Positions 12,879 through 62,484 of a stretch of 64,000 nt of DNA are shown piece by piece; position 1 is the stretch's first letter; the number at the start of each line of letters is the position of its first letter. The stretch spans positions 62,001-126,000 of the forward strand of contig NZ_FNOR01000016.1 in assembly GCF_900107095.1 (NCBI RefSeq). The letters are read 5' to 3'. The stretch comes from Collimonas sp. OK242 (GTDB taxonomy: Bacteria > Pseudomonadota > Gammaproteobacteria > Burkholderiales > Burkholderiaceae_D). The notes below the pieces were generated by a model. The model was not told the DNA's origin. It searched no databases and saw only the letters and a list, made by a program, of their open reading frames with translations. The position numbers and the translations under genes were made by a program.

Positions 12879-12892
12879 TTGATGCAGATCAA
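12879..12892. promoter_or_regulatory. FNR-type box TTGATGCAGATCAA
   Basis: Perfect match to TTGAT-N4-ATCAA. A leftward -10-like TATCAG (reverse strand, 12851-12856) is centred 32 bases from the box centre, consistent with class II activation of the methyltransferase. The rightward counterpart (TAACTT, 12915-12920) is weaker. Confidence 0.8.
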
Positions 12893-13038
12893 AATGCGAA
12901 GCCTCTCCCATTTCTAACTTGAAAAAGCAGGAAGAAATATTGACGATCTCATTTCAAAGGAGAAAAACGTGCGCACAAATCCTGGAATTTTCCTGGTCGA
13001 TATGAGCAAGGAGATAGGGGGGGAATCGCTTTCCTTAT

Positions 13039-13052
13039 TTGATCTATCTCAA
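13039..13052. promoter_or_regulatory. FNR-type box TTGATCTATCTCAA
   Basis: One mismatch to the FNR palindrome. Rightward TAGACT (13074-13079) is centred 31 bases from the box centre. It would therefore drive the phosphoribosyltransferase / hydrolase / erythromycin-esterase operon. Confidence 0.75.
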
Positions 13053-13197
13053 ATTGTGACCATGCACAGTGAGTAGACTTAAGCAAACAGAGTGTCGCTG
13101 AACGCTGCTCAAATTGACAAAAGGCTGTATCAGCCGCTGTATGCCGGCGTCGTTGAGGAGGTCAGCTTCAGATTCGCCCATGAGATCGGGGTTGCCT

Positions 13198-13872
13198 ATG
13201 TATGAGACGGAACGTTTTAAGAATCGCATGGACGCCGGAGCGCGACTGGCGCAGCGGCTTGGCGCCTATGCCGGGCGTCCGGATGTGCTTGTGCTGGCGC
13301 TGCCGCGTGGCGGTGTTCCAGTCGGTTTTGCGGTTGCCCAGGCGTTAGACGTCCAGCTCGACATCCTACTGGTACGCAAGCTGGGCGTCCCCGGAAACGC
13401 AGAGTTGGCGATGGGGGCCATCGCCAGTGGCGGCGTGTATGTATTGCAAGCTGATGTACTGAAGCAACTTGATATCCCGATGGAGATAGTCGAGGCAACG
13501 GCGCAGCGCAAACTCGAAGAATTGGCTCAGCGTGAAAAGCTGTATCGGGCTAGCCACCCCGCCGCGCAGTTGGAAGGCCGGGTTGTCATCATCGTTGACG
13601 ACGGTCTGGCGACCGGATCGACCATGCTGGTCGCCATCAAAGCGGCGCGCGAGGCCAAAGCGGCGCGCATTATCGTTGCCGTTCCCGTTGCAGCGTCGGA
13701 AGGAATCCGGCAGATTGAATCGCAGGTCGATGAAGCCATTTGCCTGATGACTCCCGAACCTTTTTATGCGGTCGGTCTGTGGTATGACGACTTCGGTCAA
13801 ACCAGTGATGACGAAGTGGTGGAACTACTTGATAAAGCTGCTAATTTGCGGGCGCAACACAAACCGGCTTGA
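13198..13872 (+). CDS. phosphoribosyltransferase-domain protein
   Basis: A 224-residue type I PRTase-fold protein (COG1926-like). It has an N-terminal ALPRGGVPVGFAVA segment and LLVRKLGVPGNAELAMGAI, and the PRPP-binding loop VIIVDDGLATGSTM near residue 145. The true substrate is unknown. Mycobacterial homologues are fused to hydrolase or erythromycin-esterase domains and belong to the DosR dormancy regulon. I chose ATG 13198 because the MYETERFKNR start is typical; the frame is open to 13114. A class II FNR promoter lies about 120 bases upstream. Confidence 0.88.
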   Translation: MYETERFKNRMDAGARLAQRLGAYAGRPDVLVLALPRGGVPVGFAVAQALDVQLDILLVRKLGVPGNAELAMGAIASGGVYVLQADVLKQLDIPMEIVEATAQRKLEELAQREKLYRASHPAAQLEGRVVIIVDDGLATGSTMLVAIKAAREAKAARIIVAVPVAASEGIRQIESQVDEAICLMTPEPFYAVGLWYDDFGQTSDDEVVELLDKAANLRAQHKPA

Positions 13873-13986
13873 ACAATCAGCCGGTCACTTCCAGGCTGAA
13901 CCGATCAAGAACGATGGCAGGCTGAAACTAGCCTTCATCGACCAGCAAGCAGGTGGCGGCCAAAGCGGAAACATGAGGAGATTTTG

Positions 13987-14649
13987 ATGATGCAAGCAAT
14001 GCAAAGAGGACTGATCGGCATCAAAGTTGACGGGGTCCGCCTGGAAGGCATGTTGGATATACCGCAAGATGCCGTCGGCACAGTTCTGTTCGCTCACGGC
14101 AGCGGCAGCAGTCGCTTTAGCCCTCGCAACAATTATGTGGCGGAACGGCTGCGGCAGGCCCATCTGGGCACATTGCTCGTCGATCTTCTCACTCCGCATG
14201 AAGATCAGATCACCTCGACGCGCTTCAATATCGCCTTGCTTACGCAGCGCCTGAGCGCCGCCTGCGATTGGCTGCGGCAGAATAAAAGCACTGCCGGCCA
14301 CCCGCTAGGACTATTCGGCGCCAGCACGGGTGCGGCGGCAGCGTTGCAAGTGGCAGCCATGCATGGTGCCGGCATAGCGGCGGTTGTCTCCCGTGGCGGC
14401 CGCCCTGATCTGGCGGGCAGCCATGCACTGGATCAGGTCCGCGCACCAACGCTATTGATCGTCGGCGGCAATGACGTCGCCGTCATCGAACTGAATCGCA
14501 ATGCTTACGCCACGCTGAACTGCGAAAAACGGTTGGAGATCATTCCAAATGCAACTCATCTGTTTGAGGAGCCGGGCGCCCTGGAAGCGGTTTCTGTGTT
14601 GGCGTCGGCGTGGTTCACACAGCATTTGATCCGGCCGGCCAGCGCTTGA
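13987..14649 (+). CDS. alpha/beta hydrolase, dienelactone-hydrolase-like
   Basis: A 220-residue alpha/beta hydrolase. Visible features are the oxyanion region LFAHGSGSSRFSPRN, the nucleophile elbow GLFGASTGAAAAL (Ser in GAST), an acid in VGGNDVAV and the catalytic His in PNATHLFEEPG. Such small hydrolases often follow or are fused to the COG1926 phosphoribosyltransferase. AGGAG at 13976-13980 precedes the ATG. It lies 114 bases after the PRTase gene and 27 before the erythromycin-esterase gene. Confidence 0.88.
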   Translation: MMQAMQRGLIGIKVDGVRLEGMLDIPQDAVGTVLFAHGSGSSRFSPRNNYVAERLRQAHLGTLLVDLLTPHEDQITSTRFNIALLTQRLSAACDWLRQNKSTAGHPLGLFGASTGAAAALQVAAMHGAGIAAVVSRGGRPDLAGSHALDQVRAPTLLIVGGNDVAVIELNRNAYATLNCEKRLEIIPNATHLFEEPGALEAVSVLASAWFTQHLIRPASA

Positions 14650-14676
14650 GCAGCCACAAAAGAGAAGGAATCTGTC

Positions 14677-16017
14677 ATGAAATCGGAATCCGTAAATAAA
14701 GCCATCGGATCATCTGCAACCGTTCTGACCGGCGCCGATACCGATTATGACTCTTTGCTGGCGCTAATCGGCGATGCGCGCTTCGTTTTGCTCGGTGAGG
14801 GAAGTCATGGCACACGGGAGTTCTACCGGGAACGCGCGCGCATTACGCAACGGCTCATCACCGAACGACATTTTACGGCTGTTGCGGTCGAAGCCGATTG
14901 GCCGGATGCCTACCGGGTCAATCGCTATGTCTGCAATCAGAGCGACGATTCGAATGCCGAACAGGCACTGGGGGGATTTAAACGCTTTCCGACCTGGATG
15001 TGGCGCAATGTGGAGGTGCTTGATTTTGTCGACTGGCTGCACGACTACAATGGCACCTTAATGCCGCAGCTCCCCAAAGTCGGCTTTTATGGCCTCGACC
15101 TTTACAGTCTGTTCACGTCAATCGACGAGGTGCTGCATTACCTTGACAAAGTTGACCCGGAAGCTGCACGCCGCGCCCGGACACGTTATGCCTGCTTCGA
15201 CCACTTCCGGAAGGATAGTCAGCGCTATGGCCATGCCGTTGGCATCGGCATGTCAGCCTCTTGCGAGGAAGCTGTCGTGACGCAGTTGCGAGAGCTGCAT
15301 GTACAGGCTGAAAAATATTTGCAGCACAACGGAGCGGATGCTACCGATGCATTTTTTTACGCGCGGCAGAATGCTCGTCTCGTCATGAACGCCGAGCAAT
15401 ATTACCGCACCATGTTTTCCGGACGTGTCTCATCCTGGAATCTGCGTGACCGGCACATGACGGAGACGCTCGATGCGCTCGCGCAACACCTTTCGCATGC
15501 ATTGCCCGAACCGGCCAAGATCGTGGTCTGGGCGCACAACTCACACCTTGGCGATGCACGTGCCACGGAAGTCGGCCAGCTTGGCGAATGGAACGTAGGT
15601 CAACTGGCGCGCCAGTTATACGGGGAACGGGTTGTTCTGGTCGGCTTTACGACCTATCAGGGAACGGTGACCGCCGCTTCCGATTGGGATGCGCCAGCGC
15701 AACGCAAGCGCGTCCGGCCGGCGCTGGCAGGCAGTTACGAAGAACTGTTTCACCAGACCGGCATTGCGCGCTTCATGTTACCGTTGCGCGGAAACAATCA
15801 AGCGACGCAAGCGCTCTCGCAACCGCATCTGGAACGCGCCATCGGCGTGATCTATCTGCCGGAAACCGAGCGGCAGAGCCACTATTTTCATGCAAACATG
15901 CCCCAGCAATTCGATGCCATACTGCATTTTGATGAAACCCACGCAGTCAAGCCGCTGGAACTCGGCAGTCATTGGGAAACCGGGGAAGCGCCCGAGACAT
16001 TTCCGGTTGGCGTCTAG
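14677..16017 (+). CDS. erythromycin esterase-family protein
   Basis: A 446-residue member of the erythromycin esterase / succinoglycan biosynthesis family. The conserved catalytic-fold motifs LLGEGSHGTREFYRERA, AVEADWPDAYRVNRYV and VVWAHNSHLGDARATE are present. True macrolide esterases (EreA/B) are a small branch. Chromosomal copies next to PRTase genes, like the C-terminal domain of mycobacterial Rv2030c, are associated with dormancy and have unknown substrates, so I would not call this a resistance gene. AGAGAAGGAA precedes the ATG. It is the last gene of the three-gene operon and is convergent with the fusion ligase. Confidence 0.9.
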   Translation: MKSESVNKAIGSSATVLTGADTDYDSLLALIGDARFVLLGEGSHGTREFYRERARITQRLITERHFTAVAVEADWPDAYRVNRYVCNQSDDSNAEQALGGFKRFPTWMWRNVEVLDFVDWLHDYNGTLMPQLPKVGFYGLDLYSLFTSIDEVLHYLDKVDPEAARRARTRYACFDHFRKDSQRYGHAVGIGMSASCEEAVVTQLRELHVQAEKYLQHNGADATDAFFYARQNARLVMNAEQYYRTMFSGRVSSWNLRDRHMTETLDALAQHLSHALPEPAKIVVWAHNSHLGDARATEVGQLGEWNVGQLARQLYGERVVLVGFTTYQGTVTAASDWDAPAQRKRVRPALAGSYEELFHQTGIARFMLPLRGNNQATQALSQPHLERAIGVIYLPETERQSHYFHANMPQQFDAILHFDETHAVKPLELGSHWETGEAPETFPVGV

Positions 16018-16024: not shown

Positions 16025-18814
16025 TCAATCCAGGCAATCGAACTCACCTGAAAGCGGCACCATCGCCTTGCGTGCCGCATTCGACAGGCGGACCGTCGCT
16101 GCCCAGTCATTGCCGGCGGGATGCATTATCTGGCCAACTTCGAATGCGATCGCGGCACGGCGAGGCAGCCAGGTTTCATCCCGCAATGCGATGCGCGTGC
16201 CGCGCAGGCCGGCGACAACAACTGATGCATCGGCCTTGGCCGCCGCTGCGAAAGCGCCTGAATGAAACGACTTGAGACCCGGCTCGCGACTGAATGTTCC
16301 CTCCGGAAATACCAGCAGATTGTCACCGCGCATTAATGCCGCTGTCATCAACTCCACATCTTCACTGCTGCGCTCGATATTGGAACGATCAATGAACACG
16401 ACCCCCAGTCCGCATAGCAAGGTATGGATCAGTCGTTGATTGGCGAATTCGCGCTTGGATGCGAAAGCATAGCCGGGAACAGGAGGCAGCACGGCCGTCA
16501 ATATGATGCTGTCAAGATAGCTCGCGTGGTTGATCAGCAGCACGTGAGGCTGCCGAGGCAGCCGATCAAGCCCGCTGACTGCCGGCGCGGTTGCCGTCAA
16601 ACGTAACAGCAGGCGCGCTGCGAAGTGAGCGATACGCCGCCCCACTGACGGCCGTTGCAACAGCGCGATCAAGGAACCGCAAGATAGCGCAAGTGCGCCA
16701 AAGATTATCCAGGTATAGCAAGCGTAGGCCCATCTGCCGGCTTTTCTTGCCATGATCGTCAAACGTGCCCATGCCGTCGCGGCCGTGAAGCGGGCGGCGG
16801 TCAACCAAGGCAGGGGGGCGCGATTCAGCATCCTTCCGTTTTCATAAGCCTGCTTGCAGGCGAGGCGCCGGATCTTTCCGCTCGACGTCTTCAGCACCCA
16901 ATGCGGCGCGACGAATACAACGTCGTCGGCAGGCTGCCCGATGATATTGATAGACGCTTGATTGACGCTGCGCCGCAATGCTGTCTGCATCGCCGCATCA
17001 CGTTCCCTGGTCTCGGCTACGATCACCAGACGCTCGCTGCCGGTAGCCGGATCGCTGCTGGCAAAGGCAGCGACACATCCTTTGCGAATACCGGGAAGAT
17101 TGCCGATCGCCTGTTCCAGATCGTATGGATACAAATTACGTCCGCCGCGTTTGATCAGATCCTTGATGCGTCCGGTAATAAAGACTTCGCCGTCTGCCAT
17201 GTAGGCATAATCGCCTGAATCGAGCCATCCATCGCGAAACAGCTTCGCCGTCGCCTCCGGATTGCGATAGTAGCCTGAGGTCGCGGAAGGGCCGCGAAAC
17301 TCCAGGCGGCCGACGCGACGCTGGGGCGACTCGTAACCGGCATCGTCCACAACTCTGATCTGATGCCCCGGCAGTGCCCGGCCGCACGAAGGCATGGCTA
17401 GTGCATCGGCATCCTTTGCCGGCACAGCCTTGCCTTCATGGTCAAACGATGCACGTGAAATGAAATCGATGCGCGGACCGCGTCCCAGAGGTGGAAAGGC
17501 CAGTCCGACCGACGACTCGGCCAAACCGTATACCGGCGTGATGGTCTGATAGCGCAGGCCACAGCGCGCAAAGCGCGTTGCGAACGACGTCAAGGTGACA
17601 GTGCTGACAGGTTCTGCGCCGTTTAGCGCCAGTCTCCATGCGGACAAATCCAGCGATGGCAGAATCGCGTCGGCGGTGTGGCGAACGCACAATTCGTAGG
17701 CAAAGTTCGGCGCTGCGGAAATGGTACCCCGGTGGCGTGACAGCATTTGCAGCCAAATCGACGGTTGCGCCAGAAAAGTAAGCGGCGACATCAAGATCAA
17801 CGGAATGCCATGGTACAGAGAGCCTAACCAGGCACCGATCAGTCCCATGTCATGGTAGAGCGGCAACCAGGACACAAAGATATCATTCGCATCAACCTGC
17901 GAGGCTTGTCCCAGTGCGCATATGTTGGCAAGCAGATTTGCGTGCGTGAGCATGACGCCTTTGGGATCGCCTGTGCTGCCGGATGTATATTGGAGAAATG
18001 CGATGTCCTCCCGACGAGGGCGATAGCGGGGTGCTGCAGATGCGTTGCTTAGATCCTCCGGCGTGAGGATGGCGACCATACTCGGCACCTGTGCCTGCAG
18101 CATACGGGCAAACGGCTTGGCCTGGGCTATGGCAATGATGAAGGTCGCTTCAGCGTTGGACAAGATGTGTACATGGCGCTTCAAATGTTCTTCAAGCTGG
18201 GCCAGACGCGCAGGCGGGTAAATCGGCACCGGTATGCCGCCGGCGAACATGACGCCAAAGAAACATGCAAGGTAATCGTGGCCGGTAGGCAACATCAACG
18301 CGACCGGCTGTCTTGGCTGAAGTCCTTGCGACACGAGACCAGCCGCGACGGCGTGTGCAGCTTCAAGCAGATCGCGGTAGCGAATTGCATGTTCCTGATG
18401 CTGTTCGTCATGCAGCAGAATGTGCACCCGATCAGGCTGCTGCGCAACGTGCCACTCCAGCACCTCCAATAGAGTCTGCGCGTTTTCGGGAACGCCGATA
18501 GTCTGCGTCTTGTCCAATGTCGCTGAAAATTGCGGCGTCAGCGATTGCGCCTGCCCCAAAAAACGCAGAAGATCATTCGGCGTATCCGCTTCCGATAGTG
18601 AGGCGCTGGATAGTTCCACGTCGAAAGCACGCCCCACGCGCAACATCAGTTCGACGCGCGCCAGGCTGTCGAGCGCAAGGTCTTTTTCAAAAGATGTGTG
18701 CGACGTGATTGTATGTGGACGATCAGGATAGGTCTCATCCGCCATTTTCTGCACGACCGCCAATAAGCGATCAATCGCCGGCTCGTCCATAGATCGGGTT
18801 GTGGTTTCGGTCAC
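16025..18814 (-). CDS. trifunctional ACP / fatty acyl-AMP ligase / PlsC acyltransferase fusion
   Basis: A 929-residue fusion. Residues about 10-95 are an acyl-carrier domain with the phosphopantetheine Ser50 in LALDSLARVEL. Residues about 115-660 are an adenylate-forming ligase of the fatty acyl-AMP-ligase type (LQYTSGSTGDPKGVMLTH, YGLAESSVGLAFP, DSGDYAYMADGEVFITGRIKD-like). A hydrophobic stretch follows, then a C-terminal 1-acylglycerol-3-phosphate acyltransferase domain with NHASYLDS (HX4D) and FPEGTFS. The protein could activate a fatty acid, load it on its own carrier and transfer it to a lysolipid at the membrane. I chose GTG 18814 (AAAAAGAG before it); ATG 18790 is the alternative. The longer frame overlaps the Nudix gene. 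Confidence 0.85.
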   Translation of the reverse strand: MTETTTRSMDEPAIDRLLAVVQKMADETYPDRPHTITSHTSFEKDLALDSLARVELMLRVGRAFDVELSSASLSEADTPNDLLRFLGQAQSLTPQFSATLDKTQTIGVPENAQTLLEVLEWHVAQQPDRVHILLHDEQHQEHAIRYRDLLEAAHAVAAGLVSQGLQPRQPVALMLPTGHDYLACFFGVMFAGGIPVPIYPPARLAQLEEHLKRHVHILSNAEATFIIAIAQAKPFARMLQAQVPSMVAILTPEDLSNASAAPRYRPRREDIAFLQYTSGSTGDPKGVMLTHANLLANICALGQASQVDANDIFVSWLPLYHDMGLIGAWLGSLYHGIPLILMSPLTFLAQPSIWLQMLSRHRGTISAAPNFAYELCVRHTADAILPSLDLSAWRLALNGAEPVSTVTLTSFATRFARCGLRYQTITPVYGLAESSVGLAFPPLGRGPRIDFISRASFDHEGKAVPAKDADALAMPSCGRALPGHQIRVVDDAGYESPQRRVGRLEFRGPSATSGYYRNPEATAKLFRDGWLDSGDYAYMADGEVFITGRIKDLIKRGGRNLYPYDLEQAIGNLPGIRKGCVAAFASSDPATGSERLVIVAETRERDAAMQTALRRSVNQASINIIGQPADDVVFVAPHWVLKTSSGKIRRLACKQAYENGRMLNRAPLPWLTAARFTAATAWARLTIMARKAGRWAYACYTWIIFGALALSCGSLIALLQRPSVGRRIAHFAARLLLRLTATAPAVSGLDRLPRQPHVLLINHASYLDSIILTAVLPPVPGYAFASKREFANQRLIHTLLCGLGVVFIDRSNIERSSEDVELMTAALMRGDNLLVFPEGTFSREPGLKSFHSGAFAAAAKADASVVVAGLRGTRIALRDETWLPRRAAIAFEVGQIMHPAGNDWAATVRLSNAARKAMVPLSGEFDCLD

Positions 18815-18842
18815 AGCGGCTCTTTTTTTGCGAGACAAATCA

Positions 18843-19259
18843 CTAACAACCGGACAGCACATGTGCCCAGTCCAGCACTGGCACCAAGCGCTCAGATAAA
18901 AGTACGCGCGCGTCACGGTAGGATAACCAACGGAATTCCTCATGTTCGGGGCGTCCCAGCTGCGGATTGATTTTTAGTTCCACGCTGTCCGTATGCGTTA
19001 TCGCCAGATAATAACGAGCTACTTTGCCCGCCCCATATGGCGGTGTCTCGAAAAACGCCTGTCCCCATATGAAATCGAGGTCATCGAGCGCCGTTTCTTC
19101 GCGCACTTCGCGGCAGGCCGCTAATTGCGGTGTCTCGCCCGGCTCGACCATTCCTTTGGGGAAATCCCAATAGCTATACGCGCGTAGTAACAGATAGCGG
19201 CAGCGCGCATGTTCTCGATGCATGAGCACTACACCAGCGGAAAGAAATTTCTGTTTCAT
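18843..19259 (-). CDS. Nudix hydrolase
   Basis: A 138-residue Nudix protein. The Nudix box reads G-MVEPG-E-TPQLAAC-RE-V-REE, followed by TAL where most members have TGL. Such small enzymes hydrolyse nucleoside diphosphates linked to another group, for example Ap4A or CoA derivatives; the substrate is not determined. Its start overlaps the stop of the upstream small gene (ATGA) and its stop lies 28 bases before the acyl-ligase fusion, so the three form one leftward operon headed by the FNR box at 19520. Confidence 0.9.
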   Translation of the reverse strand: MKQKFLSAGVVLMHREHARCRYLLLRAYSYWDFPKGMVEPGETPQLAACREVREETALDDLDFIWGQAFFETPPYGAGKVARYYLAITHTDSVELKINPQLGRPEHEEFRWLSYRDARVLLSERLVPVLDWAHVLSGC

Positions 19260-19672: not shown

Positions 19673-19686
19673 TTGATGTAGATCAA
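19673..19686. promoter_or_regulatory. FNR-type box TTGATGTAGATCAA
   Basis: Perfect palindrome. Rightward CAGAAT (19709-19714) is centred 32 bases away. It would drive the glyoxalase-domain gene and the lipoprotein behind it. Confidence 0.8.
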
Positions 19687-19880
19687 GCTCTGACGGCAGT
19701 CGGAACTTCAGAATCGTTGTCATGGTGCTGATCGCGGCTTGGATTTATCCGCGCATCGCCACATGAGGCCAGGTTGCCATGACCATGCATCCATTTCTCA
19801 CCCATTGCGATACAGCACTGACGATAGAACAGCGTGTTCGTATCGACAATCTTGACAGGAACAACCAGGTGGAGGTCACA

Positions 19881-20864
19881 ATGCACTCACAACGCAACAC
19901 AAAGCTGATCGACGTCATCGCATTGCATGAGGTCGGGCCGCGAAAGCGGCTGGCCAGGCGAGTCCGACATTGTTTCTGGCAAGGCTTGCTCGCAGTGCTG
20001 CTGGGCGTTGCCGGCGCGGCGCAGGTCATGGCGGCGCCGCTCCAGTTGCCGGCGCTGCTCACCCCCGCCAGCCAGGAGCATCATGTCGGCAAGGTGATCT
20101 TCGTGGAACTGTTGACGCCAGACCTGGCCGCCGCCAAGCGCTTCTACGGGGGATTGTTTGGCTGGACATTCCGCGATATTCAGACTGGCGGGATAGCATA
20201 CGCCGAGGCATCTCTCGAAGATCATCCGGTCGCAGGGCTGATTCACAGGGATTTACCGGCGGGCGCGCAGCGGCAGCCAGCGTGGCTTACCTTCATCGCA
20301 GTGCGTGATGTCGACGCCGCACAAGCGGCTGCATTACAACATGGCGCGAAAGTGCTGTACCAGCCGCATAGCATCCCTGATCGTGGCCGCGAAGCAGTCT
20401 TCGCGGATCCGCAGGGGGCCGTTTTTGCAGTCCTCGCCTCGAGCAGCGGCGATCCGCCCGACGTCCTGGCCGCGCCCGGGGAATGGATCTGGAGTTCGCT
20501 CATGACGACCGAACCGGATACCGCTGCCGAGTTCTACCAGACGCTATTCGACTACGAAGTCTTTGACTTTCCAGCTGACAAGCCCGCTCGGCATCTGATG
20601 CTCGCCTCCGACAGTTATGCGCGCGCGAGCGCTAACAGATTGCCTGCGAGCAGGCCCGATGCCCATCCCCACTGGCTCAATTACGTCCGCGTCGACGATA
20701 CGGTGAAGATGACTGAAAAAGTCGTGTCGCTCGGCGGCCGCGTGCTAGTTGAGCCGCGGGTCGATCGTCACGGCGGCAGGATTGCGGTTGTCGCCGATCC
20801 TCAGGGAGCTGTCTTCGGACTGCTTGAATGGCCGACCGCTGAAACTAAAAAGGTGACCAAGTGA
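19881..20864 (+). CDS. exported protein with two VOC (glyoxalase-like) domains
   Basis: A 327-residue protein with a long signal peptide (basic stretch PRKRLARRVRH, then a hydrophobic core ending near MAAP, about residue 53). Two tandem VOC/glyoxalase-bleomycin-resistance domains follow: residues about 65-185 (VIFVELLTPDLAAAKRFYGGLFGW) and 195-320 (WSSLMTTEPDTAAEFYQTLFDY, DPQGAVFGLLEW). The enzymatic role is unknown. The ATG at 19881 follows GGTGGAGGTCACA; an earlier in-frame ATG at 19779 lacks such a site. An exported VOC protein is uncommon. Confidence 0.85.
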   Translation: MHSQRNTKLIDVIALHEVGPRKRLARRVRHCFWQGLLAVLLGVAGAAQVMAAPLQLPALLTPASQEHHVGKVIFVELLTPDLAAAKRFYGGLFGWTFRDIQTGGIAYAEASLEDHPVAGLIHRDLPAGAQRQPAWLTFIAVRDVDAAQAAALQHGAKVLYQPHSIPDRGREAVFADPQGAVFAVLASSSGDPPDVLAAPGEWIWSSLMTTEPDTAAEFYQTLFDYEVFDFPADKPARHLMLASDSYARASANRLPASRPDAHPHWLNYVRVDDTVKMTEKVVSLGGRVLVEPRVDRHGGRIAVVADPQGAVFGLLEWPTAETKKVTK

Positions 20865-21208
20865 ATATCTTCCTCTTGCGCTGGCCGGCGGCTGCCTTCG
20901 TAGCCGGGCTCTTCACGGGCTGCGCCGTCACTGGTGACGGCTATCTATACGATGGCGGCACGAGTGTCGGAGTCGATTACTATGAGCCCTACGGTGTGTT
21001 CTACGATGGCTGGGGACCTGACTACTTCGTCGCGCCGTTTCGCGGCGGTGACCATCGTCCGGACCACGGTAGCCGCCGTCCAGACCGCGGTGACCACCGC
21101 CCAGACCATGACGAGGGCCGCTCTTCTCCACATTTTTACAGACCGGCGCCGGCATCCCGCCCGATGCCGTCTATTCCGTCGCGCTCTGGCGGCTTTCGAT
21201 CGCATTAG
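20861..21208 (+). CDS. small lipoprotein with charged tandem repeats
   Basis: A 115-residue predicted lipoprotein starting with GTG that overlaps the preceding stop by four bases. The lipobox is LFTGC (Cys21). A Gly/Tyr/Asp-rich stretch (YEPYGVFYDGWGPDYF) is followed by Arg-Pro-Asp-His/Arg-Gly repeats (RPDHGSRRPDRGDHRPDH) at residues 65-85. I do not recognise a function. It is probably anchored in the outer membrane and co-transcribed with the exported VOC protein. Confidence 0.7.
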   Translation: MNIFLLRWPAAAFVAGLFTGCAVTGDGYLYDGGTSVGVDYYEPYGVFYDGWGPDYFVAPFRGGDHRPDHGSRRPDRGDHRPDHDEGRSSPHFYRPAPASRPMPSIPSRSGGFRSH

Positions 21209-21317
21209 CCGCTGGCACGACAGGCAATGATGCCTGCGCCACGATAAGAAGGGCCGCCATGCATGGCAAGCACTGACGGCCTAGTCCTCCGGGTGCGGTG
21301 TATCGGCTTTGCGGCAA

Positions 21318-23240: not shown

Positions 23241-23625
23241 GACTTCCTCCATTGAAGGTATTGGCGTTCCGTTTGTTAGCCGGTTCACGGGCTGAAATTT
23301 CGTGTGAGTACAAAAATAGCGCCGCGCAGGCCAGACGTCGCCCTTTACGTCTTTATGTTCAAGATAGCAGTTCGCATCCGGTCGATTTTGATTTATATCA
23401 AAAGCAGGAAATTAGCCGGGGTTACGATAACAAGGAACAGCTGCATTGCCACGCAGTCGAAGCAGTGAAGCGGCCGCATGTCAGTTGATCATGTAGACGT
23501 AGCGGCAATATTCGATCAAACCGCCGCTGTGCAACGGGTTAGGCTGTTTAACGGCGCTTCGAGCAGCGGGCGATCGTCGATGTTGTTGCCACTCTCACAT
23601 TTTTTTACTTTTTGGAGCAGAAGTC
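23241..23625. other. regulatory region between dnaK and the DUF5335 gene
   Basis: This 385-base divergent gap holds a perfect FNR box (23388-23401) with possible -10 hexamers on both sides. No additional gene is seen. Confidence 0.5.
23388..23401. promoter_or_regulatory. FNR-type box TTGATTTATATCAA
   Basis: Perfect palindrome. Leftward TATCTT (reverse strand, 23361-23366) is 31 bases from the centre and would drive dnaK. Rightward TACGAT (23423-23428) is also 31 bases away and could drive the DUF5335 gene. Confidence 0.82.
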
Positions 23626-23976: not shown

Positions 23977-23978
23977 TA

Positions 23979-24227: not shown

Positions 24228-24307
24228 ATAAACGCTGGAAAGGGAAACGCATGACTGGCGTAATCAGCACTTTCCAGGCCGTCATCTGATCATCCTCGCG
24301 CCCGAAC

Positions 24308-45706: not shown

Positions 45707-45737
45707 TTCGAGCTCCCCGTGATAACTGAATGGGCAA

Positions 45738-47808: not shown

Positions 47809-47840
47809 CGGCGCCTTTGTTGCCGATTGAGTGGGGGGGG

Positions 47841-55147: not shown

Positions 55148-55226
55148 ATTCTCCATCTCTGCACCCTTAGTAATCTGCTGCTGCGCTCATCCGGAAGTGT
55201 ATGGATTACGTCTTCGCCATTCATCG

Positions 55227-57017
55227 TCAAGGTTGCAATACGTAGAGCCCGGGCGCATCCAATTGTCGTTGGTCGAGGATGGGGGGACGGATTTTTTCCC
55301 CGGCATGGGCTGCCAGCCAGGCTTCCCAGGCGGGCCACCAGGAACCCTCATGTTGCGGGGCTTCCTGCTGCCAGCTGTCGGCGTCCACATAAGCACCGTC
55401 GCCAGCACGAACCGCCATCTGGTAACTGCGGTGCGGGTGGCCCGGCGGTGAAACAACGCCGGCATTGTGGCCGCCGGAGGTCAGTAGGAAGGTTATTTCG
55501 GTGTCGCTAAGCAGATGTATCTTGTATACCGACCGCCACGGCGCCACGTGGTCGGTCAGCGTGCCGACCGCAAATACCGGGACATGGATGTCGGTCAGGG
55601 CAATTGGCCGGCCATTCGTGCGATAGCGTCCTTCGGCGAGGTCGTTTTGCAGGAACAACTGGCGCAGGTATTCGCTGTGCATGCGATAGGGCAAGCGGGT
55701 AGCATCGGCGTTCCAGGCCATCAGGTCGCTCTTGGTCTCGGGGATTCCGAGCAAATACTGGTTCAGGCGGCGCGACCAGATCAGGTCGTTCGAACGTAGC
55801 AGCTGGAATGCGCCAGCCATCTGCTTGCCATCCAGATAACCCCGGTTCCACATCGAGGCTTCCAGGAAGCTGATCTGGCTTTCGTCAATGAATAATGACA
55901 GTTCGCCCGGTTCCTTGAAGTCGGTTTGCGTTGCGAACAAGCTCATGCTTGCCAGGCGTCGATCGTCGTCGCGCGCCATGGTGGCGGCGGCAATGGCCAG
56001 CAGGGTGCCGCCCAGGCAATAGCCGACGGCATTGACCTGGTTTGCTCCTGTGCAGCGGGTAACGGCATCGATTGCCGCCATGACTCCCAGCTTGCGATAG
56101 TCCTCCATCCCAAGGTTGCGGTCCGCTGCAACCGGATTTTTCCAGGAAATCATGAATACCGTATGGCCTTTGTCGACCAGATACTTGACCAGCGAATTCT
56201 GCGGCGACAAGTCGAGGATGTAGTACTTCATGATCCAGGCCGGCACGAATAATACCGGGATGGCGTGAACGCTGCCGGTGGCAGGCGCATATTGGATCAA
56301 TTCGATCAATTCGTTTTGGAACACGATCTTGCCTGGCGTGATAGCCACCGTTTCGCCTGCCTTGAACGGCTGGTCGGCAATTTTCCCGCTGGCGGCCTGC
56401 GCGATGTCTTTTAGCGCCATTTCAGCGCCGCGCAGCAGATTCAGGCCGCCGCTGCGCAAGGTTTCCTGTTGGACTACCGGATTGGTCGACAGGAAATTCG
56501 ACGGCGCCAGCATATCCAGCAACTGGCGCACCGTAAATGTCATCACCTCCTCGTGATGCCGGGACACGCCATGTATGCCGGTCGTCGCCCGATGCCACCA
56601 TTGCTGGTTCAACAAGAACCCTTGGGCTAGCAGATTGAAAGGCCAGCGTTCCCATGCCGCATCGGAAAAACGCCGGTCCTGTGGCAATGGCTCGATGCAG
56701 TGCTCGGCTTCCGCCTGGTTGGGCAGGCCTGCATTCAAGGCGTAAAGATCCCAGCGCCAGAAATTCTTCCATGCATTTTGTAGCAGAAGCTCTTGTTTGG
56801 CCGGAGACAACTCCAGGTGCGCCAGCCAGTCGAAATAGGCATTGGCAAGGGCCGCAGGCGACAGGTTTCCGGTGAGCTTGGCCAGTTCTGCGTTGGCGAT
56901 CAGATCGAGCTGGGCCAAGGGCGGGCATTGTTCTTCCGGCCCTTTCGGCAAATGGCCCAGCCAAGCGCTTCCCAGGCGTTCTTTGCTGACGGGTTTCGAA
57001 CGCAGCTTGCTATCCAT
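55227..57017 (-). CDS. phaC: class I polyhydroxyalkanoate synthase
   Basis: A 596-residue PHA synthase that polymerises 3-hydroxyacyl-CoA into storage granules. The catalytic Cys lies in NAVGYCLGGTLLAIAAA; the other members of the triad lie in LTDHVAPWRSVYK (Asp) and SGGHNAGVV (His). VPAWIMKYYILDLSPQNSLV is a strong family marker. GGGAAGCAAACC precedes the ATG. A divergent perfect FNR box separates it from an acetoacetyl-CoA reductase gene. Confidence 0.95.
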   Translation of the reverse strand: MDSKLRSKPVSKERLGSAWLGHLPKGPEEQCPPLAQLDLIANAELAKLTGNLSPAALANAYFDWLAHLELSPAKQELLLQNAWKNFWRWDLYALNAGLPNQAEAEHCIEPLPQDRRFSDAAWERWPFNLLAQGFLLNQQWWHRATTGIHGVSRHHEEVMTFTVRQLLDMLAPSNFLSTNPVVQQETLRSGGLNLLRGAEMALKDIAQAASGKIADQPFKAGETVAITPGKIVFQNELIELIQYAPATGSVHAIPVLFVPAWIMKYYILDLSPQNSLVKYLVDKGHTVFMISWKNPVAADRNLGMEDYRKLGVMAAIDAVTRCTGANQVNAVGYCLGGTLLAIAAATMARDDDRRLASMSLFATQTDFKEPGELSLFIDESQISFLEASMWNRGYLDGKQMAGAFQLLRSNDLIWSRRLNQYLLGIPETKSDLMAWNADATRLPYRMHSEYLRQLFLQNDLAEGRYRTNGRPIALTDIHVPVFAVGTLTDHVAPWRSVYKIHLLSDTEITFLLTSGGHNAGVVSPPGHPHRSYQMAVRAGDGAYVDADSWQQEAPQHEGSWWPAWEAWLAAHAGEKIRPPILDQRQLDAPGLYVLQP

Positions 57018-57073: not shown

Positions 57074-57087
57074 TTGATCCAAATCAA
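57074..57087. promoter_or_regulatory. FNR-type box TTGATCCAAATCAA, divergent
   Basis: Perfect palindrome between phaC and phaB. Leftward TATGCT (reverse strand, 57047-57052) is 31 bases from the centre and rightward TAGACT (57110-57115) is 32 bases, so one box could activate both genes. Confidence 0.85.
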
Positions 57088-57153
57088 TTCGGCTGGAGAG
57101 ACATGCAACTAGACTGATTGCACCTTCCAACCCAAAACCAGCAAGGACATGAT

Positions 57154-57876
57154 ATGAAGCGCGTCGCCATTGTCACCGGAGGTACCCGCGGCCTGGGGAA
57201 AGCCATTTCGATTGCGCTGCATGAGCAAGGTTATCGCGTCGCAGCCGTGTATCATTCTAACGCTGACTCGGCACAGGCGTTCCGGGAAGCGACCGCTATC
57301 GATATCTATCAGTGGGATGTCAGCGATCCAGAGGCATGTCAGGCGGGCATCGCCCAAGTTCAAGGCGAGCTGGGCCAGGTCGATATTCTGGTCAACAATG
57401 CCGGCGTCACCAGCGACGCTGTCCTGCACAAGATGACGGTGCAGCAATGGTCGAATGTGATCCAGACCAATCTGGGATCCATGTTCAACATGTGCCATGG
57501 CGTGATTTCCGGCATGCGTGAGCGCGCCTTCGGACGCATAGTCAACATCAGCTCCGTGAATGCCCAGAAAGGCCAGTTCGGGCAAGCCAATTATGCCGCA
57601 GCCAAGGCAGGAATCCTTGGCTTCACCAAGTCTCTGGCGCTGGAAAGCGCACATAAGAACATCACGGTAAACGCCGTCGCCCCAGGTTATTGCGATACGG
57701 ACATGGTTGCCAAGGTTCCGAAGGAAACGCTGCAGGCTATCATTGCCGGTATCCCGGTAGGGCGTCTGGGCAAGCCGGAAGATATCGCTCGCATGGTGGC
57801 GTTCCTGGTCCATGAAGACGCCGGATTCATCACCGGGGCGACGTTTTCAATCAACGGCGGACAACATATGGAATAG
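57154..57876 (+). CDS. phaB: acetoacetyl-CoA reductase
   Basis: A 240-residue short-chain dehydrogenase that makes (R)-3-hydroxybutyryl-CoA for PHB. The cofactor motif is TGGTRGLGKAI, with NNAG and the active site SSVNAQKGQFGQANYAAAKAG (Ser and Y-x3-K). It is of the PhaB/FabG type; the divergent partner phaC favours PhaB. GCAAGGACATGAT precedes the ATG. A beta-ketothiolase gene is not nearby. Confidence 0.9.
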   Translation: MKRVAIVTGGTRGLGKAISIALHEQGYRVAAVYHSNADSAQAFREATAIDIYQWDVSDPEACQAGIAQVQGELGQVDILVNNAGVTSDAVLHKMTVQQWSNVIQTNLGSMFNMCHGVISGMRERAFGRIVNISSVNAQKGQFGQANYAAAKAGILGFTKSLALESAHKNITVNAVAPGYCDTDMVAKVPKETLQAIIAGIPVGRLGKPEDIARMVAFLVHEDAGFITGATFSINGGQHME

Positions 57877-57907: not shown

Positions 57908-59050
57908 TTAACCCCTGAAAATATCAAAAGGCTCGATCCTCAGAACTTTGCGCACGCCGAAATAGCTGGAGATGCCGGCGATCAGCAGCACCATCCCGAA
58001 CGCCAGTTCCAGATTCCAGAAAGTGATCATCGCTGCATAGTTCGGAATCCTGGTGCGCGCGATCGAAATCACCAGCGTCACCAAGCCGATGCCTAAGCCG
58101 TAACCCGTCAATGAAGTAAACGTGGCCATGAACAGTATCATGTAGATCAGCTCGCGTCCTTTTGCCCCGATCGCCTTCAATGCGCCGAATTTGTCGACAT
58201 TTTCCAGCACGAAGGTATAAAACGTCTGGCCAGAGATCGACAATCCGACGATGAAGCTGATCGCGGTCATCAGCAGGATATTGGTGCCGATGCCGGTCTG
58301 ATAGGTGTAATAGTCGGTGATGTGCGTGTTGAACTCGCTCTTGGTCATGGCGCGATAGCCTAGCTTGGCCACCTGCCGCTTGATGCCGGGGATCGCTGCG
58401 TCATTCTTTGCCTGCGCCAGCACGTAGGAGATGGTGAAGCGGGTGGAAGGGATGTACTGGATGGCGCGGCGATACGTTGTGTACAGTGTCGGCACGCCGT
58501 TCAGGCCGTTGGCGTTGACTTTGGCAATCCCAACGATCACGCCACGATGGTCATTCAGTTCAAACGACGTACCGATCTGCGGATTTTCCAGCTTGGGGAA
58601 CTCAACGTCATCGACAACTATGAAGGAGTTATCCGCATAGATATCCAGGATATTGCCTTTTTCAAGCGCCGGCCGGCCAAACAGGCTCGTGTCATCCAGG
58701 CCGACGATAGAGACGGATTGATTGGTGCCGTTGCTGAGCTTAAGCTGTGCGCCGCCGATAAACAGCGGTACGGCATAGCTCACGCCATCAATGCTGCGCA
58801 CCGCATCCAGCAGATAATCCGGCATGGGAATGGAACCGGTCGGCGTATTGACAGCCGGATCCATGATCCAGATGTCGGCACCGATATTGGTGACGGTCGA
58901 ATAGGCGCGGTTCAGAATGCCGGAAAAGATCGCGGTCATCTGCACCATCAGAAACACGGCGAAGGTAATCCCGATCAGCAATGCGGAGAATTTGGCCTTG
59001 TCGTTGACCAGCAACTTGAAACCGATGCGCAGGATTCCGCTGTGCTTCAT
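57908..59050 (-). CDS. ABC transporter permease, DevC/FtsX type
   Basis: A 380-residue permease of the MacB/DevC class. One N-terminal transmembrane helix (FSALLIGITFAVFLMVQM) is followed by a periplasmic domain and three C-terminal helices (ILLMTAISFIVGLSISGQ, LIYMILFMATFTSLTGYG). It forms an inner-membrane pair with the ATPase at 61616 and probably exports a lipid-like or peptide substrate through the HlyD and outer-membrane genes. Confidence 0.88.
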   Translation of the reverse strand: MKHSGILRIGFKLLVNDKAKFSALLIGITFAVFLMVQMTAIFSGILNRAYSTVTNIGADIWIMDPAVNTPTGSIPMPDYLLDAVRSIDGVSYAVPLFIGGAQLKLSNGTNQSVSIVGLDDTSLFGRPALEKGNILDIYADNSFIVVDDVEFPKLENPQIGTSFELNDHRGVIVGIAKVNANGLNGVPTLYTTYRRAIQYIPSTRFTISYVLAQAKNDAAIPGIKRQVAKLGYRAMTKSEFNTHITDYYTYQTGIGTNILLMTAISFIVGLSISGQTFYTFVLENVDKFGALKAIGAKGRELIYMILFMATFTSLTGYGLGIGLVTLVISIARTRIPNYAAMITFWNLELAFGMVLLIAGISSYFGVRKVLRIEPFDIFRG

Positions 59051-60537
59051 AATGCCTTCCCTTCTTGGCTGCTATCCGGCGCGTTGCGCCAACCGCCGCC
59101 GAGGGCGACGAACAATGCCACGGTGTCTTGCTGGCGCAGGGCGACTGCCTGCAGATAGCTGATGGTTGCTTGCTGATACTGGACGTCCGCTGCCAGCACG
59201 TCCAGATAAGCGGCCAGCCCGGCGCGATAGCTAACCTGTAATAGATGCAATGCTTCGCCGGCGGCACGTTGCGACTCAGCCTGGGCCTCCAACGCCTCGG
59301 CGTCGTGCTGCAACGCTTTGAGGGAATCTGCAACCTGTGCAAATGCGGAAAGCACAACCTGCCGGTAAGTGGCCAGCGAGGCCTGGTAAGCGTCGATGGC
59401 AGCCTTGCGGCCGAACCACAGGCTGCCGCCTCGAAACAGCGGGATCGACAGCGCCGGGCCGATACTCCAGAACTTGCCGCTTGCCGCCGACAAATTGCCG
59501 AAACTGCTGCCCGCTACCCCGTAGCTGCCGTTCAAGCTGAAACTGGGAAACATGGCTGCGGTGGCGACACCGATATTGGCGCTGGCCACGTGCAGCTGCG
59601 CCTCCGCCGATAGGATGTCAGGCCGTTGCCGTACCAGGTCGGATGGCAGGCTTAGCGGCAAGTCCGCCGGCAATGCGAGCTGGTTCAGATCGACGTCGGG
59701 CAAACTGGCCTGGGATGGCATGCGGCCTTGCAGGATCGCCAGCAAATGCTCAGCCTGGTCCATCCTTTGCCTCAAGGGCGCGAGGGCGGCGCGATTGGCC
59801 GCAATCAGGCTTTGCAGGCCCAATACGCTCGAATAGGCAGAAGTGCCAGCGCGAAACTGAGCCTTGGTGGCGTCCAGTTGCTGGTTCTCCATCTCGATGA
59901 GCTGCTCCGTGGCGCGCACCTGCGCCGCATAGCCGGCGCGGGCGATGGTGGTATTGACGACATTGGCAGACAAGGTCAGGTAAGCCGCCTGGCCGGCATA
60001 GCGCTGATTGTCTGCTTGCGCCCGCAGGCCTTCGACCGTGCGGCGCTGGCCGCCAAACACGTCCAGTGCATAGCTGATGCTGCCGCTTAAGGTGACCACA
60101 TTGAAGATCGACCCCGATGACTGCAAGCCATTCGTCACCGGTGCGTTGCGTTCACGGACGGCGTCCAAGCCGGCGCTGATCTGCGGGAAGAACACGCCAT
60201 AGCCGGCCCGCAGGTTGTCCTGACTCTGGCGCAAGGTCGCCTGGGATGCTTCCAGGGTCGGATTGTTGGCGATAGCCTGGCTGACCATGGTATCGAGTTG
60301 CGCCGAGTTGAACATGCGCCACCAGTCGGCGGGGACTGCGGCGCCAGGAATGACGTGCTGCACATTGCCGTCGGCCGCCATGGCGGCCGGCATCGGTTCA
60401 CGGGTATAGCGATCGACCTCAGGCGGAGCAGGGCGGACAAAATCCGGCCCTACCGTGCAGGCTGCCAGCGCCAGTGCGGCCAGCAGAGCGGCGCATGTGC
60501 GCAGCTGGCTGTATAAGTGTGCATTGATACACATCAT
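59047..60537 (-). CDS. outer-membrane efflux lipoprotein, NodT/OprM family
   Basis: A 496-residue TolC-like channel. The signal peptide ends in the lipobox LALAACT (Cys26). The paired repeats are evident as NNPTLEASQATLRQSQDNL and RPDILSAEAQLHVASANIG, the family's fingerprint. ATG 60537 overlaps the stop of the HlyD gene by four bases; the frame is open further up but lies inside that gene. It probably completes the tripartite exporter. Confidence 0.93.
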   Translation of the reverse strand: MMCINAHLYSQLRTCAALLAALALAACTVGPDFVRPAPPEVDRYTREPMPAAMAADGNVQHVIPGAAVPADWWRMFNSAQLDTMVSQAIANNPTLEASQATLRQSQDNLRAGYGVFFPQISAGLDAVRERNAPVTNGLQSSGSIFNVVTLSGSISYALDVFGGQRRTVEGLRAQADNQRYAGQAAYLTLSANVVNTTIARAGYAAQVRATEQLIEMENQQLDATKAQFRAGTSAYSSVLGLQSLIAANRAALAPLRQRMDQAEHLLAILQGRMPSQASLPDVDLNQLALPADLPLSLPSDLVRQRPDILSAEAQLHVASANIGVATAAMFPSFSLNGSYGVAGSSFGNLSAASGKFWSIGPALSIPLFRGGSLWFGRKAAIDAYQASLATYRQVVLSAFAQVADSLKALQHDAEALEAQAESQRAAGEALHLLQVSYRAGLAAYLDVLAADVQYQQATISYLQAVALRQQDTVALFVALGGGWRNAPDSSQEGKAL

Positions 60538-61619
60538 TTCTGTCCAATATAGACGTCCACTTGCTGTCCCGGATAGACCATGTCGAGGCCTTTTTTCGGA
60601 AAGCGGAAAATGACGGGCAAGACACGCAGGTCGACTTTTTCCTGGCGCTGATTGGACAGTTCGATCTTGGGTGATACATACGGCTGGACACGTACGAATT
60701 CCAGCGGCACCTTGAGATCGGTGCCGCGGATCGACATCTGCGCCCGTATATGCGCGGCGGCCGGCAAGCGCGCAACCAGGATTTCGTCGATATAGCAACG
60801 CACCGCAAGATAGTCTTGCGGCGTCCCCATGATGAGCAGCGGATTATTGCCCTGGGTATAGCTGTCATAGCTGCCTAGCGCCGATACGTAACTGCCTGGC
60901 GCGGCATTGACGGTAAGAACGACGCCATCGGCTTGCGCCTTGATCACATATTTTTGCAACAAGGCACTTGCCGCCAGGTAGGCCTGGTTTGCCGCCTCAT
61001 ACTGTTTCTGCTGGTTGGCGACGTCATAACTCCAGCTGCCAGCCTTGGTCAACGCGTATTGCCGGTTCGCTACCTCAAGGCTGGTTGCCGCCTGACCGAC
61101 TGCATCCATGGCTGTATCGACGACATCCTTGCTGACCGATTTCGGGTCCATCTCAAAGGCGGCGCGGCGTTTGTCATATTGGTCGCGCGCGGCTTTCAGG
61201 TTAGCCTGGGCCTGGTCCACTTGGGCTTTGGTAATCGCCAGCGTTTCCCTGCGCGGCTGAGCCTTCAGTTCTTGCAGCAGGCTCAACGCCGCTTCAGACT
61301 GCAGGCGCAGCTGCTCGGTGCTGGCCTTCTGTACGGTAGCGTCGATGGCCAGCAGCGGGGTGCCGGCAGAGACCTGTTGTCCCTCGTGCACCAGCACCTG
61401 GCTGACCGCCCCGGCAACCTCAGGGAAGATATTGATGTTCTGGCCGGCAATCTGGCTGCTCTCGATGATGCCATTGGAATAGATGGCGCTCTCGTAAGGG
61501 CTGCTGACCGGTTTGAACAGCGGCGTCTGAGCCGGATGCTGAATGCCCAGGATATAAGCGCTTAACAGGCCGATGATGATGCCGCCTAGCGCCAATCCAA
61601 AGATGATCTTGTTTCTCAT
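60534..61619 (-). CDS. HlyD-family membrane fusion protein
   Basis: A 361-residue periplasmic adaptor (HlyD/EmrA/DevB type) with an N-terminal membrane helix (IIFGLALGGIIIGLLSAY), the lipoyl-type halves around residues 55-90 and 210-245, a coiled-coil hairpin between them, and a C-terminal barrel. Start ATG 61619 overlaps the ATPase stop by four bases. It links the inner-membrane permease to the outer-membrane channel. Confidence 0.92.
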   Translation of the reverse strand: MRNKIIFGLALGGIIIGLLSAYILGIQHPAQTPLFKPVSSPYESAIYSNGIIESSQIAGQNINIFPEVAGAVSQVLVHEGQQVSAGTPLLAIDATVQKASTEQLRLQSEAALSLLQELKAQPRRETLAITKAQVDQAQANLKAARDQYDKRRAAFEMDPKSVSKDVVDTAMDAVGQAATSLEVANRQYALTKAGSWSYDVANQQKQYEAANQAYLAASALLQKYVIKAQADGVVLTVNAAPGSYVSALGSYDSYTQGNNPLLIMGTPQDYLAVRCYIDEILVARLPAAAHIRAQMSIRGTDLKVPLEFVRVQPYVSPKIELSNQRQEKVDLRVLPVIFRFPKKGLDMVYPGQQVDVYIGQK

Positions 61620-62395
61620 TCCGTTCCCTTGTCCAGGCCGGTGATGCGACCGTCTTCCATGTGGATGATGCGGTCTGCGTATTCGTTGATGCGTGCATCG
61701 TGTGTGACGATGACGATGCAACGGTTCTGATTGAGTATTTTTTCCTTGATGAAGGCAATGATCATCCTACCGGTGTCGCCGTCCAGCGAAGCGGTAGGCT
61801 CATCCAGGATCAGTATTTCGGGAGAACCGATGATTGCCCGCGCGATCGCCACGCGCTGTTGCTCCCCGCCCGACAGCTTGACCGGAAGTATCTCGCTGCG
61901 TCCCGTCAGGCCGACAATGTCGACGTACTTCTTCGCTTCGGCAATCGATTCATTCCAGTTGCGCTGCCTCAGGATCAGCGGGATGGCGATATTTTCCGCC
62001 GTTGTCAATCGCGGAAACAGATGGTAGTCCTGGAATACGAAGCCGACCTTGGTGAGGCGGAAATCTGCCAGGCGGTCGTTATTAAATTCCCAGATATCGG
62101 CGCCATCGACCGTCACTTTGCCGGCATTGGGGCGCAGGATGCCTGAAATAATGCTCAGCAATGTGGTCTTGCCGCTGCCCGACGGGCCGACCACGAACAG
62201 GATTTCACCGAAATAGGCGACAAAGTCCACATTATTGACAGCAGTCATCCTGGCGTCGCCTTCGCCAAACCATTTGGTCAGGCCGGTGGCAACGATGGCT
62301 TCTTTTTGACTGGCATGGCGCTGGGTATCCACTTTTTTATGCAATTCTCTGGCGTATCTGTTGTGAATCGGCCGCTGCAAACGTGCGGCATTCAT
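61616..62395 (-). CDS. ABC transporter ATP-binding protein, DevA/LolD type
   Basis: A 259-residue ATPase with Walker A GPSGSGKTTLL, the Q loop VFQDYHLFPRL, signature LSGGEQQRVAIARAI and Walker B ILILDEPTASLDGD. It powers the permease at 57908. ATG 62395 was chosen with a weak ribosome site (AGGCGGC). The four-gene operon ATPase-HlyD-TolC-permease has an FNR box 76 bases upstream of this gene. Confidence 0.93.
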   Translation of the reverse strand: MNAARLQRPIHNRYARELHKKVDTQRHASQKEAIVATGLTKWFGEGDARMTAVNNVDFVAYFGEILFVVGPSGSGKTTLLSIISGILRPNAGKVTVDGADIWEFNNDRLADFRLTKVGFVFQDYHLFPRLTTAENIAIPLILRQRNWNESIAEAKKYVDIVGLTGRSEILPVKLSGGEQQRVAIARAIIGSPEILILDEPTASLDGDTGRMIIAFIKEKILNQNRCIVIVTHDARINEYADRIIHMEDGRITGLDKGTE

Positions 62396-62470
62396 GCCGC
62401 CTGTCGAAGCAGCGATACCGGTATGCGGCTGTGATCTGTCTGTAGTGTAAGGATTCGGTTCATGGATCGG

Positions 62471-62484
62471 TTGATCCAGATCAA
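62471..62484. promoter_or_regulatory. FNR-type box TTGATCCAGATCAA
   Basis: Perfect palindrome. Leftward TACACT (reverse strand, 62444-62449) is 31 bases from the centre. It would drive the four-gene exporter operon. Confidence 0.84.

Follow-up and report, generated by a model that had tools for sequence, protein, structure and literature searches.

The window analysed here, a stretch of 64,000 nucleotides from Collimonas sp. OK242 (positions 62001-126000 of contig C12, in a host genome of 4.98 Mb in 56 contigs), carries a dense run of FNR boxes, the palindrome TTGAT-N4-ATCAA, around a gene for an FNR-type regulator. Compared with plasmid-collection records, the 16S of the host is 93.0% identical to Cupriavidus campinensis and about 92% to Burkholderia, which marks the host as a betaproteobacterium. 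Judging by its sequence, this is very probably a low-oxygen survival locus of the low-oxygen-activated (lxa) type outside Burkholderia, in which about 22 transcription units would be switched jointly by FNR. This kind of locus is already known as lxa; its member in another betaproteobacterial genus is new, and extends the lxa type to that genus with a predicted promoter map that is unusually complete.

Twelve perfect boxes, running from 12879 to 62471, lie in the window, the number given in the initial annotation and borne out by our count, against a mean of 0.13 and a largest value of 1 in 100 dinucleotide shuffles. With up to one mismatch allowed, the window holds 24 sites where the shuffles give 2.57 expected and 7 at most, namely the 12 perfect boxes and 12 one-mismatch boxes; the figure of eight single-mismatch boxes in that annotation is correct for the intergenic ones and too low as a total, four more lying within genes (14011, 31405, 38692, 60524). 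Its extent of about 50 kb likewise describes the boxes in the window, and the run is slightly longer, since a box with one mismatch at 64558 and a perfect one at 67415 (window numbering) carry it past the right end of the window to about 67.4 kb. Far from being equally dense over the genome, perfect boxes number 36 in all. The window, with 1.3% of the host sequence, contains 12 of them (binomial P 2e-14), and another lies 3.4 kb beyond its right end. Elsewhere in the genome the rate is 0.31 per 64 kb, which the window exceeds about 38-fold. When the 36 sites were placed randomly 20,000 times, never more than 7 fell in any 64 kb, and the reversed box pattern, used as a control, occurs once in the genome. 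A second cluster of six perfect boxes is found at C26:269-297 kb.

Transcription units were defined as same-strand genes joined over gaps of up to 163 bp, with one case of 248 bp (ORF 23680-24060, ORF standing for open reading frame), their borders being drawn by us. Three gene starts were revised beforehand on homology or domain limits (36400, 36730 and 62428), and small ORFs with no homology support, e.g., 20945-21223, 23996-24289, and 25516-25788, were not counted as units. One of these revisions concerns the perfect box at 62471, which initially fell inside the ABC ATPase ORF as called; homology of this protein to the sister genome G009 starts at residue 29, placing the gene start near 62428 and thus the box upstream of the gene. 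On this grouping, a perfect or one-mismatch box stands 20-280 bp upstream of the first gene in 22 of the 25 units. If the 24 sites are scattered at random, a mean of 2.2 units and a maximum of 9 are boxed in this way. Between 11.8 and 62.5 kb, 22 of 23 units are boxed, the sole exception being the FNR gene itself (22 of 24 if ORF 23680-24060 is treated as a separate unit). The boxes are indeed located upstream of the genes, as first described, at 36-268 bp from the first gene of the unit to the nearest box once the three starts are corrected rather than at 50-210 bases. Pfam and NCBIfam scans of the window proteins, from which the gene identities in Table 1 derive, recovered all the genes originally named (universal stress proteins (Usp), Hsp20, DnaK, a CBS protein, class II ribonucleotide reductase, polyhydroxybutyrate (PHB) enzymes, ppsA, and an exporter).

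FNR class II promoters have their box centre near -41.5, which puts the first base of the -10 hexamer 28-29 bases beyond that centre. We scored TANNNT as the -10-like element, omitting box 30432 as the second box of one promoter. Of the 23 gene-facing pairings (19 boxes), 14 have it at this distance of 28-29 bases, compared with an average of 0.37 and a maximum of 2 at other offset pairs, and with an average of 0.83 and a maximum of 7 in 20,000 shuffles. The four one-mismatch sites in coding sequence have it on none of their eight sides. The combined pattern of box and -10 element, with TTGAY permitted, occurs 14 times in the window and not once in 100 shuffles, and its strict form 21 times genome-wide (11 in the window, from nine boxes, 6 on C26, 2 on C24, 1 on C15, and 1 on C30), with no occurrence of the reversed control. 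This spacing, the one expected of class II control, argues that most promoters of the locus are built as FNR class II promoters.

The regulator gene inside the locus, intact as first annotated (25804-26640), encodes a protein in which C22, C25, C31, and C124 align with the cysteines of a solved FNR, which we take to be that of Aliivibrio fischeri. The E-S-R of the recognition helix is kept, and the NCBIfam Fnr subfamily cut-off is cleared narrowly (229.7 bits vs 228). With its four cluster cysteines and FNR recognition helix, this resident FNR is predicted to be a 4Fe-4S protein. The 700 bp upstream of its gene contain no box even at two mismatches. Two further FNR genes, at C26:279244 and C26:291116, lie beside the second box cluster; regulation may therefore not depend solely or chiefly on the resident FNR. 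All three proteins match CxxCx5C and their recognition helices are nearly identical; the C26:291116 copy has no match to our pattern for the fourth cysteine and is thus a less certain oxygen sensor. A weak fourth CRP-family match lies on C32 (E 2e-5, 23% identity). A tree of 26 proteins places the resident FNR within a genus clade of Usp-adjacent FNR (98/100) on a long branch (0.6), for which the tree tool warns that placement is unsure. Besides the two FNR genes, the boxes at C26:260-300 kb (L018, L019) accompany genes for a cbb3-type oxidase subunit, FixG, PTA-MaoC, and an AMP-ligase.

Within a sample of 15 genomes of the genus, 10 with an FNR hit and 5 without, the strict box and -10 pattern is present in 9 of the 10 FNR-positive genomes and in none of the 5 FNR-negative ones (Fisher P 0.002, uncorrected for kinship), the latter including one genome only 86% complete and one of 1.7 Mb. 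All five FNR-negative genomes still carry 1-7 bare palindromes. Despite scrambled gene order among the sister species, the boxes remain with several genes. Across sister genomes and paralogous loci, they precede phaC at 63, 59, and 57 bp, the BON gene at 171, 167, 164, 79, and 80 bp, and usp in five copies, and the hsp20 boxes bear an identical mismatch at 138 and 128 bp. In G009, 13 of 27 perfect boxes fall within 52 kb, and a block of about 53 kb is the counterpart of the C26 region (cbb3 oxidase, FixG, FNR), with window and C24 genes intermixed, those of the window being Hsp20, CorA-like, BON, PhaC, PhaB, and the exporter. DNA searches in the genus covered 26.7-46.6 and 46.4-63.9 kb of the window. 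Among the matches listed, 46.4-63.9 kb is partly common to G009, G008, G026, and G002, and 26.7-44.2 kb has no DNA match in the 14 other genus genomes (best 20 candidates per genome) beyond CorA, usp, csp, PpsA-like, and short pieces. The exporter-box region of G009 (about 70936-71436 of the joined stretch, 2311 kb) is 87% identical over 54 bp; from this box to the ABC start there are about 500 bp in G009 vs 50 bp in the window, a distance that may reflect an insertion or an extra small gene.

Outside the genus, eight named replicons, a non-random set chosen because they carry relatives of window genes, hold related loci with homologues of 6-13 of 42 window proteins, each with Usp and a CRP/FNR-family gene. 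Those of Cupriavidus, Variovorax paradoxus, Paraburkholderia, Burkholderia, and Sinorhizobium also have, variously, BON, PhaB/PhaC, alcohol dehydrogenase, Hsp20, P-type ATPase, and APH/AAA; gene order and many genes differ from the window. Perfect boxes gather at or near the locus on Cupriavidus necator p1 (6 of 6 within 65 kb, 0 of 20,000 placements), a Burkholderia stagnalis replicon (4 of 8 in 26 kb, P 0.003), Variovorax paradoxus (3 of 4 in 26 kb, P 0.008), and Sinorhizobium fredii pSF45436d (8 of 10 in 60 kb, P 0.04). Five of the 10 boxes of Variovorax boronicumulans are clustered (P 0.017), the stretch read containing just one of these five, and on Paraburkholderia phytofirmans pOLGA1 12 of 15 lie in 83 kb, with 9 of 15 in 65 kb being weak (P 0.06). 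Eight NrdJ loci (34-57%), from six Rhodoferax metagenome-assembled genomes, one uncultured betaproteobacterium, and one archaeal bin, were tried as relatives of the island and rejected, being devoid of perfect boxes and having no more than 6 of the 42 window proteins each.

In the Burkholderia cepacia complex (Bcc), the lxa locus comprises BCAM0275A-BCAM0323, about 50 genes (PMC4981469). Its published list (PMC4981469 Table 2), in which many entries are “hypothetical”, names Usp, heat-shock and phospholipid-binding proteins, alcohol dehydrogenases, PhbB, polyhydroxyalkanoate (PHA) polymerase, and two-component genes, further a ribonucleotide-reductase-like protein, a polysaccharide deacetylase, a cation ATPase, and a “cell division-related metallo peptidase”; we read the last as FtsH-like and the phospholipid-binding protein as BON-like. 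Extended lxa forms add PpsA and an outer-membrane/HlyD/ABC exporter set that has no J2315 orthologues, and a CRP-family protein, BCAM0287, is encoded inside the locus, BCAM0049 and BCAM1483 elsewhere being further predicted regulators (PMC4981469). The locus is described as induced by low oxygen, needed for anoxic persistence, and absent from strain H111 (PMC6127331, PMC3759415), and H111 lacking both anr genes could not survive anoxia (PMC9104464). In alphaproteobacteria, core FNR targets are often grouped and beside the fnr gene (PMC2908626).

Compared by product name with the entries of that list, the window shares the Usp group, Hsp20, PhbB/PHA polymerase, alcohol dehydrogenase, the ribonucleotide-reductase-like protein, deacetylase, and cation ATPase, together with PpsA and the HlyD/ABC exporter of the extended forms. 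Like lxa, it has a CRP/FNR regulator gene inside (the resident FNR, compared with BCAM0287), a similar gene number (about 46 by our own count vs about 50), and a patchy presence among close relatives. Because the gene set and the resident regulator gene match the published lxa, we place the locus in the lxa type. Unlike lxa, it lies in another genus and has a different gene order; DnaK, PolX, the cold-shock protein, HPF, CBS, DUF4015, and NamZ are not named in the lxa table, and the phosphofructokinase and acetate kinase of lxa are not among the window proteins scanned. The lxa locus has been compared with the DosR dormancy regulon of Mycobacterium tuberculosis (PMC6127331). As far as that comparison describes it, hypoxia, many Usp, and alpha-crystallin liken DosR to the present locus, by analogy only. 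The DosR regulon differs in having a two-component regulator and another DNA site. A limited literature search at title and abstract level found the lxa papers and no such box-defined island described elsewhere.

From what is known of FNR and from the gene names, we infer that FNR would bind these boxes in an oxygen-dependent manner in the service of survival, and any of the three host FNR proteins may be the one at work. As oxygen falls, the FNR protein would gain its 4Fe-4S cluster, dimerise, and bind TTGAT-N4-ATCAA. From a box whose centre lies about 41 bases ahead of the transcript start, it would contact RNA polymerase, as in class II activation, and about 22 transcription units would be turned on together. 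The induced products would include chaperones, Usp proteins, a ribosome hibernation factor, envelope enzymes, the exporter, an oxygen-independent (B12) ribonucleotide reductase, and enzymes of PHB synthesis that, with phosphoenolpyruvate synthase, could maintain carbon and redox balance. In this sense, a map of 22 boxed units and one regulator family suggests how such bacteria may persist without oxygen.

The initial proposal of one co-regulated FNR island thus appears supported by box density, -10 spacing, conserved boxes, co-occurrence with FNR, and the clusters on most of the other replicons examined. Several results weigh against it. The unit borders are our own grouping; 9 of the 23 gene-facing pairings, among them 30344, 34462, and 44664, have no TANNNT at 28-29, and this element is present on 3 of 15 sides facing no assigned gene (12879, 23388, 25408). 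Among the sister genomes, G011 has an FNR hit and no box with -10, G007 has FNR yet no box cluster, and the tandem Usp box, 135 bp upstream in the window, has no counterpart within 350 bp in the five closest relatives. In the 41 kb read of the Caballeronia locus there is no perfect box, and no 65 kb of its replicon holds more than 2 of the 5 sites (P 0.77); the Azospirillum locus has none either, the single site of that replicon being far from it. Homology to lxa was gauged indirectly, via the B. stagnalis locus, at 13 of 42 proteins with 23-54% identity; the two-component matches there are generic, and no near match covering most of that locus was found among other records of the plasmid collection.

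That the stress genes are merely clustered by function, with incidental boxes and no co-regulation, is hardly credible in view of the box density, unit coverage, -10 spacing, and box conservation. A more serious question is which protein would read the boxes. They may be real and mainly serve the two C26 FNR proteins, whose genes adjoin the second box cluster, the resident FNR, with its long branch and no box of its own, being a diverged copy with another role. We regard this as possible and lean against it, for the resident protein keeps all four cysteines and the E-S-R of its recognition helix and sits in the densest cluster, and one of the two C26 copies fails to match the fourth-cysteine pattern. 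It is unlikely that another CRP/FNR-family protein of the FixK or Dnr type, or several in turn, would read the boxes in response to a signal that is not simply oxygen, since all three host FNR genes match CxxCx5C. Still, FixK, FNR, and Dnr are treated as sharing a DNA target (PMC2908626), and the best FNR-like genes of loci L063, L066, L049, and L065 (Variovorax, Azospirillum, Sinorhizobium) lack a CxxCx5C match, so that a similar island may have come under another sensor there.

Beyond joint control of an lxa-type locus by FNR, we tentatively suggest, without holding it probable, that the FNR regulon is a travelling collection, in which gene-plus-box modules gather in islands with their own FNR. 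Such islands would be gained, lost, and reordered as wholes, and oxygen control would arrive with the DNA, with no rewiring required at the new site. The window island would then stand beside an older one, that on C26 with the cbb3 oxidase and two FNR genes, and G009 has genes of both in its single block; that islands move as units is what we infer. The locus is accordingly a good case for the study of how regulons cluster and are exchanged as islands. Of the marks of a mobile genomic island, tRNA was looked for and not found in the window or in the sampled stretches of C12, and GC content is 0.554 in the window vs 0.577 in nine sampled loci.

Table 1. Genes and boxes of the locus in window coordinates (positions under Box are those of box starts; -10 denotes TANNNT at class II spacing)
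Feature	Position	Strand	Box	Remarks
ATPase and type II/IV secretion genes (AAA_31, T2SSE, T2SSF)	3689-8394		none	left flank; Pfam
HisKA_3 sensor kinase, LuxR-type response regulator	8755-11268	-	no FNR box	left edge; Pfam
LCM-type methyltransferase	11820-12668	-	12879	Pfam
Perfect FNR box	12879-12892			-10 on + side (towards phosphoribosyltransferase operon)
Operon: phosphoribosyltransferase, alpha/beta hydrolase, erythromycin-esterase-family protein	13114-16017	+	12879, 13039	
AMP-ligase/acyltransferase, NUDIX	16025-19259	-	19520 (1 mismatch)	-10
Perfect FNR box	19673-19686			100 bp from glyoxalase-family gene 19779-20864
DnaK/Hsp70	21318-23288	-	23388 (perfect)	-10
Small protein, nitroreductase, ORF	25005-25316, 24308-24874, 23680-24060	-	25408 (perfect)	membership of ORF doubtful
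FNR-type regulator	25804-26640	-	none upstream	cluster cysteines C22, C25, C31, C124
Protein of unknown function	27255-27686	-	27810 (1 mismatch)	-10
Operon: small protein, HPF/S30AE ribosome hibernation factor, APH/AAA kinase-like protein	27849-30246	-	30344 (perfect), 30432 (1 mismatch)	
Operon: 306-aa protein, PpsA (pyruvate, water dikinase), CBS protein	30487-34354	-	34462 (1 mismatch)	
Usp, CorA/ion-channel-like protein	34525-36478	-	36481, 36636 (both perfect)	-10 at both; usp start probably at about 36400
Small protein, paralogue of 25005-25316	36712-37035	+	36636	
PolX-type polymerase (-) and rhomboid protease (+), divergent	37038-39596	-/+	38857 (1 mismatch)	common box
Operon: cold-shock-like protein (44332-44538), polysaccharide deacetylase, DUF4015, beta-lactamase-fold/NamZ muramidase	39669-44538	-	44664 (perfect)	
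Operon: Hsp20, BON protein, sll1863-family stress protein, flavin reductase	44719-46927	-	47059 (1 mismatch)	identical mismatch in G009
Protein of unknown function, adenosylcobalamin-dependent ribonucleotide reductase (NrdJ)	47101-49652	+	47059	
Protein of unknown function	49711-50187	-	50328 (perfect)	-10
Three-BON-domain protein	50685-51335	+	50508 (perfect)	-10; box precedes it in 4 sister genomes too
Tandem Usp	51408-52256	-	52385 (1 mismatch)	-10
Class I-like PHA synthase, magnesium-type P-type ATPase	52436-57017	-	57074 (perfect)	-10
Perfect FNR box	57074-57087			between divergent phaC and phaB; -10 on both sides
Acetoacetyl-CoA reductase (PhaB)	57118-57876	+		
Exporter operon: ABC ATPase, HlyD, outer-membrane factor (OEP), MacB/FtsX permease	57908-62428	-	62471 (perfect)	-10
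Zinc alcohol dehydrogenase, partial Usp-like gene (63585-64421, 5' part beyond window)	62541-63992	-	64558 (1 mismatch)	box outside window

The genes of the left flank are probably a Flp/Tad pilus set, and the two-component pair at the left edge may or may not be a member of the island. Doubt about ORF 23680-24060 arises because a 248 bp gap precedes it. Boxes 23388 and 25408 additionally have TANNNT at class II spacing on their + side, opposite to the gene assigned to them; small genes or RNAs missed by the annotation may lie there on the + strand, with 23626-23976 and 25516-25788 as candidate ORFs. The two small-protein copies listed in Table 1, on opposite strands and each behind a perfect FNR box, are 60% identical and have no NCBIfam match. 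The protein encoded at 44332-44538 looks, from its sequence, like a cold-shock protein; its DNA matches every genus genome, and this gene would account for box 44664. For the PHA synthase, the class I model is the best match, but under that model's cut-off. Two Usp genes are complete inside the window, and to its right (L017) a Usp-like gene, FtsH, and a second Usp-like gene stand alongside the continuing boxes, where the box variant TTGTTCCATATCAA (64558/67415 region) is identical to one preceding a Usp in G009 and G002.

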